Below are positions 490 through 6,430 of a stretch of 57,307 bases of DNA, piece after piece. The notes under the pieces were generated by a model. The model ran no database searches, was not told the origin of the DNA, and saw nothing but the letters and a program-made list of their open reading frames with translations. The stretch is taken from the IMG/VR virus record IMGVR_UViG_3300007510_000008, positions 1-57,307 of that record; one strand, 5' to 3'. Each line of letters starts with the position of its first letter. The stretch's first letter is position 1. The translations under genes were made by a program, and so were the position numbers. The DNA is from a virus.

Positions 490-573
490 GCGGGTATTGT
501 CTAATGGCTATGACTCCAGCCTTCCAAGCTGGCGCGAGAAATCGCATTGTGGGTTCGAATCCCACTATCCGCT
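490..573 (+). tRNA. tRNA-Gly (TCC) with a long variable arm
   Basis: The acceptor halves GCGGGTA and TATCCGC pair with one G-T wobble. The anticodon arm CCAGC-CTTCCAA-GCTGG is perfect and reads TCC. The T arm is GTGGG-TTCGAAT-CCCAC and the discriminator is T. G1-C72, C2-G71, G3-C70, C35, C36 and U73 match the known bacterial glycine identity set. Oddly, the variable region (533-548) is 16 nt and holds a 4-bp stem GCGA/TCGC closed by a GAAA tetraloop. That is a class II arm normally restricted to Leu, Ser and Tyr tRNAs. The D stem is only 3 bp (GTC/GAC). Confidence 0.85.
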
Positions 574-4266: not shown

Positions 4267-4268
4267 AT

Positions 4269-4343
4269 GGCTCTCTATCCCAACTGGCAGAGGACTGTGT
4301 TTCAAACGCACAGCTAGTCTGAGTTCGAATCTCAGGGGAGTCA
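4269..4343 (+). tRNA. tRNA with 9-nt anticodon loop; isotype unresolved
   Basis: The acceptor GGCTCTC pairs with GGGAGTC (two G-T), the T arm CTGAG-TTCGAAT-CTCAG is perfect, and the discriminator is A followed by CC. The anticodon stem CTGTG/CACAG (4295-4299, 4309-4313) is perfect and the variable loop is a normal 5 nt. That leaves a 9-nt loop, TTTCAAACG. If the first and last loop bases form a T-G pair, the remaining 7-nt loop TTCAAAC reads CAA (Leu), but the tRNA lacks the class II arm expected of Leu. A shifted register would read TCA. I leave the isotype open. Confidence 0.65.
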
Positions 4344-4389
4344 CCCAAAATTGCCGAACTAGGTATATGATTCGGCAAAATACACTAAT

Positions 4390-4802: not shown

Positions 4803-5867
4803 ATGAATATTGGTCTTGTGGATGCAGATTACTTAACCCGAAAAAAGCACCGATTTCCTAATCTAGCCTTAATGAAATTATCTGGACATTTTAAGAGGCT
4901 AGGACATTCTGTTGAACTTGTATTAAATACGAATTTATTATCTGGCTCTTTTTATGATAAAATTTTTGTCAGTCAAGTATTTACCGACACGGATTTCCAG
5001 ATTCCTGAAGGTATAGATTTTGAAAAAGGAGGGACGGGTTTTTCGCTGCAAAATAGTCTTTCATTACCCCCCATGATTGAGCATCATTATCCAGACTATG
5101 AGCTATATTCCAAGGCTTCAATTTCAGGAGAAATGTATGATAACTATAGTATAGGTTTTACTACTAGAGGTTGCATAAGAGGGTGTGATTTTTGCGTAAA
5201 TAAGAATTCCAAAAGAGCAGTTTTACATTCTCCTGTAAGCGAATTTTTAGATAAAAACCGAAAATATATTTGTTTGCTGGACGATAACATTCTTGCCTGT
5301 AAGGATTGGGAACAAGTAATTAATTCCCTAAGAGATACGGGAAAACCTTTTCAATTTAAGCAGGGTTTAGATATAAGATTAATGACTCCAAGAAAGTCGA
5401 AACTTTTTTCCGAATCTAAATTGAGAAGCTATCCCTATTTTGCTTTTGACCTGATGAAAGAAAGAAATTCTGTCGAGAGAGGTCTATCGAAGTGGCGCGA
5501 ATACAACCAGAAAAAATGTAAAGCCTACTTGCTTTGCGCTTTTGAATCTTTAGACGATGATGATATTGAAAACATTTTTGTTCGGGTTGAAATACTAGCC
5601 TCTTATAAAGTTCTCCCCTATTTAATGAGGTTCGAAGATTATAAGAAAAGTGAGAACTATGGTATGTATGTAAATCTTGCAGCTTATCTCAATCAAGCTT
5701 CTCTTTTTGAAAAAATGTCTTTTAGAGAGTTTTGTGAAAAAGATAATGCAAGAAAAGGGGGCAACTCAGCAACAATGAGATACTTGAACGACTTTGAGTG
5801 TAGAAATCCCCACATAGCTAAAAAATTTTTTGATCGTTGTATCTGGAAAGAGCAAAATAGTAGTTGA
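4803..5867 (+). CDS. Radical SAM enzyme with N-terminal Rossmann/B12-like domain
   Basis: The 354-residue protein has the radical SAM cluster motif C124-x3-C128-x2-C131 (GFTTRGCIRGCDFC) after an N-terminal domain beginning NIGLVDADYL and PNLALMKLSGHFKRLGHSVE. That opening resembles the cobalamin-binding-like domain of a known bacterial radical SAM family. It would bind a [4Fe-4S] cluster and cleave S-adenosylmethionine to start radical chemistry; the substrate cannot be told. Its codon use is clearly more AT-rich (TTA, ATA, AAA, TTT) than its neighbours, suggesting recent acquisition. It is inserted between tRNA-Cys and a promoter that leads to tRNA-Ala. A role in tRNA modification is only a guess from location. 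Confidence 0.82.
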   Translation: MNIGLVDADYLTRKKHRFPNLALMKLSGHFKRLGHSVELVLNTNLLSGSFYDKIFVSQVFTDTDFQIPEGIDFEKGGTGFSLQNSLSLPPMIEHHYPDYELYSKASISGEMYDNYSIGFTTRGCIRGCDFCVNKNSKRAVLHSPVSEFLDKNRKYICLLDDNILACKDWEQVINSLRDTGKPFQFKQGLDIRLMTPRKSKLFSESKLRSYPYFAFDLMKERNSVERGLSKWREYNQKKCKAYLLCAFESLDDDDIENIFVRVEILASYKVLPYLMRFEDYKKSENYGMYVNLAAYLNQASLFEKMSFREFCEKDNARKGGNSATMRYLNDFECRNPHIAKKFFDRCIWKEQNSS

Positions 5868-6276: not shown

Positions 6277-6351
6277 TGCGCGGCAAGTGCTGGCATCTTC
6301 GGCTAGTCTCATAAGCTACGCCTCTCGTCGGTTCGATTCCGACCCGCGCCT
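6277..6351 (+). tRNA. tRNA-like gene with CAT anticodon (degenerate)
   Basis: Positions fit canonical numbering with CAT exactly at 34-36 (loop CTCATAA) and a perfect T arm GTCGG-TTCGATT-CCGAC. Elsewhere it is poor. Acceptor bases 1 and 72 are T and C (mismatch) with six GC pairs following, base 8 is C rather than T, the D stem pairs badly, and bases 27 and 43 mismatch (C-C). A mismatched 1-72 pair is a feature of bacterial initiator tRNA, but the anticodon stem lacks the three G-C pairs of an initiator. It could be a degenerate or recruited tRNA-Met or tRNA-Ile2, or a tRNA mimic. Confidence 0.5.
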
Positions 6352-6356
6352 CCTTC

Positions 6357-6430
6357 GGCTATGTAGCTTATATGGTAAAAGCGCATGTTTCATAAGCATG
6401 AGATTGTTGGATCGTTACCAACCGTAGCCA
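6357..6430 (+). tRNA. tRNA-Met (CAT)
   Basis: The acceptor GGCTATG pairs with CGTAGCC (one wobble). The D stem is GCTT/AAGC, the anticodon arm CATGT-TTCATAA-GCATG reads CAT, the T stem is GTTGG/CCAAC, and the discriminator is A followed by CC. The T loop ATCGTTA departs from the TTCRANY consensus, like that of tRNA-Asp here. Whether it decodes Met or, after lysidine modification, the Ile codon ATA cannot be settled by eye. Confidence 0.85.

Follow-up and report, generated by a model that had tools for sequence, protein, structure and literature searches.

A glycine tRNA with a class II variable arm recurs in phages

In bacteria, a long variable arm is taken as the mark of leucine, serine, and tyrosine tRNAs (and of tRNA-Sec), and SerRS both reads the arm and depends on it. 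Here we ask what a phage tRNA with a glycine anticodon is doing with such an arm. The gene lies at positions 490-573, on the plus strand, of a 57,307-base virus record in IMG/VR, the whole of which is called the window here. The window contains the head-tail module of a myovirus, including portal, terminase, sheath, and tape measure, and its first 7 kb hold 11 tRNA genes with protein genes in between. Within these 7 kb are also found a tRNA-Leu(CAA) at 4268-4347 whose variable region (GCTAGT) is short and class I-like, an anomaly opposite to that of the armed tRNA-Gly, and a radical SAM protein gene at 4803-5867 (phrog_9298) that sits in the tRNA cluster and adjoins tRNA-Cys.

Apart from the arm, the gene reads as a regular tRNA-Gly. 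ARAGORN called tRNA-Gly(tcc) at 490-575, Rfam RF00005 scored 55.8 bits over 490-573, and both agree with a manual cloverleaf. The 5' acceptor strand GCGGGTA (490-496) pairs with TATCCGC (566-572) to give seven pairs, one of them G-U, and G1-C72, C2-G71, and G3-C70 are kept. The D region is TTGTCTAATGGCTATGACT. The anticodon stem CCAGC/GCTGG carries the loop CTTCCAA (521-527) with the anticodon UCC at 523-525, and the T stem GTGGG/CCCAC carries the T loop TTCGAAT. U73 is at 573, and CCA is not encoded (TCCG follows). The glycine identity set of U73, G1-C72, and C2-G71 (PMC9976931) is present in full, as are C35 and C36. The paired stems, TCC anticodon, glycine identity bases, and coordinates reported by the first-pass annotation, which had advised a structure-aware check, were all confirmed. 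With the anticodon and variable region left out of the calculation, the body of the window tRNA shows an identity of 0.86 with class I tRNA-Gly(UCC), the nearest of which we take to be of the gammaproteobacterial type.

The variable region, CGCGAGAAATCGCATT, is 16 nt long (533-548). It consists of C44, a GCGA strand (534-537), a GAAA loop (538-541), a TCGC strand (542-545), and ATT (546-548), the last T of which (548) is position 48, the partner of A15. The arm is therefore a 4-bp stem with one unpaired base on its 5' side and three on its 3' side. RNAfold places this hairpin in both the minimum-free-energy and the centroid structure (-31.1 kcal/mol, z -2.9), which bears out the GCGA-GAAA-TCGC hairpin described from the sequence alone. 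Class II tRNAs have a variable region of at least 10 nt that forms a helix, and here 16 nt form a GNRA-capped stem of four pairs. Four or more Watson-Crick pairs also form in 8.9% of shuffles of the same 16 bases, so the window hairpin taken alone proves little and its relatives decide.

To find such relatives, IMG/VR was scanned with the pattern GCCTTCCAAGC N16-30 GGTTCRANTCC, which matched 59 viral loci. The class II set was made from these exact-pattern loci and the matches listed from a looser viral scan, followed by a cloverleaf filter. It contains at least 51 distinct U73 class II tRNA-Gly genes with at least 39 distinct arm sequences, so the search for similar tRNAs in phages that the first-pass annotation had recommended proved productive. 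No close relative of the exact window gene was found in the viral scans, and the neighboring 204-aa protein, used as a route to relatives, led to none. Named carriers are Serratia phage BF, Erwinia phages pEa_SNUABM, and Vibrio phage pVp-1, in the last of which the armed gene is unannotated. In a TerL comparison, 8 of 49 class II records matched, many records being fragments; with so few matches, the phages carrying the armed tRNA-Gly are probably diverse.

The arm is nonetheless uncommon among phages. In a sample of viral loci, drawn with a wider pattern and picked only for containing tRNA-Gly(UCC), one locus of 80 was class II (L007) and another had an intermediate 8-nt loop (L227). About 1 in 80 sampled tRNA-Gly(UCC) genes on phage contigs is thus armed, and about 98-99% are without an arm. 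A tree of tRNA bodies (67 columns kept) has 15 changes of class label, of which well-supported branches force just 2. No serine, leucine, or tyrosine tRNA of the same phage matched an arm closely enough to be its source, and no association with tRNA-repair genes (PNK, RNA ligase 1, RtcB) was seen in 49 class II loci. In phage BF, the armed gene occupies a syntenic slot between tRNA-Gln and a hypothetical protein; in CBB, Kaldavass, and XbC2, the tRNA-Gly in this slot is class I and 73-74 nt long. Since the bodies of these three genes also differ from the BF body, the exchange looks like gene replacement rather than simple insertion.

The exact pattern was also applied to one genome per species from 84,980 prokaryote species and gave 20 matches. 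Most of these are archaeal tRNA-Gly genes whose anticodon stem is interrupted by an intron; two others contain runs of N, and one, from Paenibacillus, gets no tRNA call. The real class II tRNA-Gly genes are L127, L128, and L141, all from MAGs. The L128 contig (a Nitrosarchaeum MAG) encodes both polynucleotide kinase and RNA ligase of T4 type, and the L141 contig (a Thermoplasmatales MAG) encodes a phage-family RtcB. These two, the only class II contigs seen with such tRNA-repair genes, are probably mis-binned viral contigs. L127 is on a 3.3-kb contig with a tRNA cluster, where two proteins were tested and neither matched a phage family. A wider pattern matched 214 of 299 genomes in a Pseudomonadota sample, and apart from a single match in G001, the Thioploca genome from which L127 comes, all of the matches listed were class I. 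Armed tRNA-Gly is rare in phages (~1%) and essentially absent from cells. The remark that a class II arm on a glycine tRNA is unusual thus holds, with ordinary bacteria lacking this form, and its recurrence in phages and near absence from cells suggest that phages reshape their tRNAs.

Across the relatives, the arm is structurally maintained. A GNRA tetraloop caps 29 of the 39 distinct arms. The bases flanking the GNRA loop pair in 76% of cases, compared with 32% after the 3' halves are swapped between sequences, and none of 10,000 swaps reaches 76%, though the class II genes in this test are not all independent draws. The pair types vary on both strands (GC/GC, GCGA/TCGC, GTC/GAC, GAC/GTC, and GCTCC/GGGGC). 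A hairpin test on all arms was weak (mean stem 2.51 vs 2.16) and was superseded by the GNRA-centered test; it is because the GNRA-flanking bases covary across relatives that the hairpin becomes significant. Of the 51 class II genes, 45 have G-C or A-U as the Levitt pair 15-48, compared with 47 of 98 class I genes from viral loci (p 1e-6). With identical variable regions collapsed, the counts are 33 of 39 and 16 of 45 (p 6e-6).

The placement of the arm was compared between isotypes using its offset, defined as the number of unpaired bases 3' of the arm stem minus the number 5' of it. Offsets peak at 0 for Ser, +1 for Leu, and +2 for both Tyr and class II Gly. The window arm has an offset of +2, and its (1,3) layout is identical to that of Tyr. 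Only one of 37 class II Gly arms lies at the Ser peak, eight have the Leu value, and 23 have an offset of +2 or more, a value reached by 13 of the 145 arms from Ser and Leu tRNAs (p 5e-11). Relative to shuffled arms, the excess of offsets of +2 or more is moderate (0.62 vs a mean of 0.41 and a maximum of 0.71), and for this reason we grade as suggestive the conclusion that Gly arm geometry avoids SerRS and LeuRS.

We lean, with a little better than even confidence, towards the window gene being a working phage elongator tRNA-Gly of class I derivation, its arm plausibly kept for escape from host enzymes. An ordinary class I tRNA-Gly(UCC) would have had its variable loop extended into a GNRA-capped hairpin. 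The product would be charged with glycine and would read GGA and GGG; together these two account for 41% of Gly codons in the phage. The determinants of GlyRS are U73, the first acceptor pairs, and C35-C36 (PMC9976931), and since the enzyme reads the acceptor end and these anticodon bases, the arm should not block charging. The Tyr-like (1,3) layout, unlike that of Ser and Leu tRNAs, together with U73 in place of A73 or G73, would exclude SerRS, LeuRS, and TyrRS, so all three are expected to be kept off. Ribosomes accept class II tRNAs, for which the flexibility of the arm matters (PMC9561287). The arm would make the phage tRNA unlike the host copy beside the anticodon stem. Host tRNA-cleaving or -modifying enzymes may then handle the armed tRNA poorly while the ribosome still accepts it, and this could be why the arm has been kept.

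Two host systems provide precedents. AriB cleaves tRNA between positions 40 and 41, and T5 evades PARIS by changes near the site (PMC12409363), while retron-Eco7 is defeated by the supply of phage tRNAs (PMC11555353). Resistance to a host nuclease and poor handling by EF-Tu, both raised in the first-pass annotation, are candidate consequences of the arm. For glycine-specific GNAT toxins and for FaRel2, recognition is through the acceptor stem (PMC9976931, PMC11559606). Since their determinants are unchanged here, they are not obvious targets of the arm, and simple escape from either through the arm was rejected as an explanation.

On the favored reading, the armed tRNA-Gly is an instance of a switch in variable-arm class that recurs in phages specifically and extends to Thr, Asn, Lys, Cys, Pro, Ile, and further tRNAs. 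In the sampled viral loci, long variable regions were found in 14 of the 416 tRNAs belonging to other isotypes that are normally class I, and a short variable region in 20 of 55 called tRNA-Leu, many of them having a TAGCCCAACTGGCAGAGGC-like D arm. Long arms occur in 22 of 189 tRNAs of the AriB-type targets Lys-UUU, Thr-UGU, and Asn-GUU, compared with 43 of 922 for other non-Gly isotypes across all viral loci analyzed (p 6e-4), and in 6 of 80 compared with 8 of 336 in the sample only (p 0.03), a comparison that is post hoc, ignores relatedness, and serves as a lead only. A broader proposal is that phages as a group break the class I/II rule, with arms added to Gly, Thr, Asn, Lys, Cys, Pro, and further tRNAs, mostly placed so as to evade SerRS and LeuRS, and with the arm lost from many tRNA-Leu, the altered variable region acting as a self mark against host tRNA-targeting immunity. 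We regard this proposal as tentative and on balance unlikely. The long-armed Thr(UGU), Asn(GUU), and Lys(UUU) tRNAs occur in loci that include L028, L042, L048, L055, L150, L162, L164, L171, and L178. Long arms are also seen in 11 of the 28 Ile(UAU) genes in the viral loci analyzed (L021, L028, L048, L057, L091, L149, L166, L278, L281, L282, and L296), several of which share the arm loop type CAGATTAG.

Near-neutral drift is a real but lesser possibility for the arm of tRNA-Gly. Under relaxed selection in multi-copy phage tRNA sets, short hairpin insertions could be tolerated, with GlyRS ignoring the loop. The diversity of the arms (39 distinct sequences in 51 genes), their presence in only ~1 in 80 sampled tRNA-Gly(UCC) genes, the 14 of 416 long-armed tRNAs of other isotypes, and the location of GlyRS determinants elsewhere than the variable loop all speak for drift. 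Against it stand the covarying stems, the retained GNRA loops, a Levitt pair found intact at a higher rate than in class I genes, and an arm geometry unlike those of Ser and Leu. The near absence of the arm from 84,980 cellular species also counts against it, although cells too have redundant tRNA genes.

It is very improbable that the window gene is a recoded Ser or Leu tRNA that inserts serine or leucine at Gly codons in the manner of nematode nev-tRNA-Gly. A long arm combined with a glycine anticodon is indeed the nev-tRNA pattern (PMC4033280), and two phage tRNAs (L027:600-683 and L067:3449-3533) have a Leu-type D arm, A73, a long arm, and a UCC (Gly) anticodon. These two resemble nematode nev-tRNA-Gly and, judging from their sequences, may place Leu at Gly codons. 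In the window gene, position 73 is U where tRNA-Leu and nev-tRNAs have A73, the D arm is of Gly rather than Leu type, and the offset is +2 rather than the Leu value of +1 or the Ser value of 0, which corresponds to one unpaired base on each side of the arm. The best similarity of its body to Leu is 0.75 and to Ser 0.61, the level of unrelated isotypes, compared with 0.86 to class I Gly. The window gene is thus not a serine tRNA that has been recoded, and the chimera of this kind that had been suggested in the first-pass annotation can be set aside.

We also place very little weight on a tRNA-like RNA with a non-ribosomal role, acting either as a decoy for host enzymes or as the partner of a Ro60-like protein. 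Such a protein is encoded in the tRNA cluster, 0.8 kb downstream of tRNA-Gly(UCC), by a Ro60/TROVE-like RNA-binding protein gene at 1364-2695 (phrog_850; Pfam TROVE 5.9e-14), and bacterial Y RNAs are tRNA-like. However, five viral relatives of the Ro60-like protein have no tRNAs nearby, class II Gly loci elsewhere lack Ro60, and the window tRNA retains every decoding feature, including the anticodon loop, the acceptor identity, and the T arm, so that a non-ribosomal role, also raised at first pass, finds no support. A YrlA match at 6304-6409 was far under the gathering score and was rejected.

An intron, some other insertion that is later removed, or a mistake in assembly is hardly credible as the source of the 12-base excess, because, although the same pattern catches intron-bearing archaeal tRNA-Gly, the archaeal excess splits the anticodon stem, which is completed only after removal, whereas every stem of the window tRNA is complete with the arm in place, and the arm is found with covarying stems in at least 51 distinct genes, finished isolate genomes included.

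A class II tRNA-Gly that is recurrent, constrained, and confined to phages indicates that phages try out tRNA architectures not used by cells. The armed gene of BF and the ordinary tRNA-Gly genes of CBB, Kaldavass, and XbC2 in the same syntenic slot offer a concrete test of the purpose of the arm. The finding also has implications for automated annotation, the armed gene of pVp-1 being unannotated, and for how armed tRNAs are designed to expand the genetic code.

The window tRNA can be placed among known systems as follows. It shares its acceptor stem, U73, and D, anticodon, and T arms with bacterial class I tRNA-Gly(UCC), to which its body is 86% identical, and differs in having a 16-nt variable region with a hairpin in place of 4 nt. 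Bacterial tRNA-Tyr, itself class II, has the same arm arrangement of one unpaired base 5' and three 3', but a different anticodon, A73, and body. tRNA-Sec, selC* tRNA-Cys, and allo-tRNA are also natural non-canonical long-arm tRNAs (PMC7609411); these have unusual acceptor and T stems (9/3 in the allo-tRNA tRNA-UTu1), whereas those of the window tRNA are 7/5. Defense-evading phage tRNAs, namely T5 tRNA-Lys against PARIS, T5 and SP15 tRNA-Tyr against retron-Eco7, and the anticodon-loop variants of mycobacteriophages, are likewise phage-encoded and either depart from the host set or add to it. They act through changes in the anticodon stem or loop, or through supply, and a change of variable-arm class was not found among them in the parts of the open-license literature that were covered. 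Open-license reviews of non-canonical tRNAs and papers on phage tRNAs, covered mostly by term search, contained no mention of a class II tRNA-Gly in phages. The nearest described analogs are the nematode nev-tRNAs, which are Leu-charged (PMC4033280). Nev-tRNA-Gly(CCC) has the same combination of a long variable arm and a glycine anticodon, but it carries class II recognition elements and decodes GGG as Leu (PMC4033280), whereas the window tRNA has the body and identity bases of a glycine tRNA, with U73.
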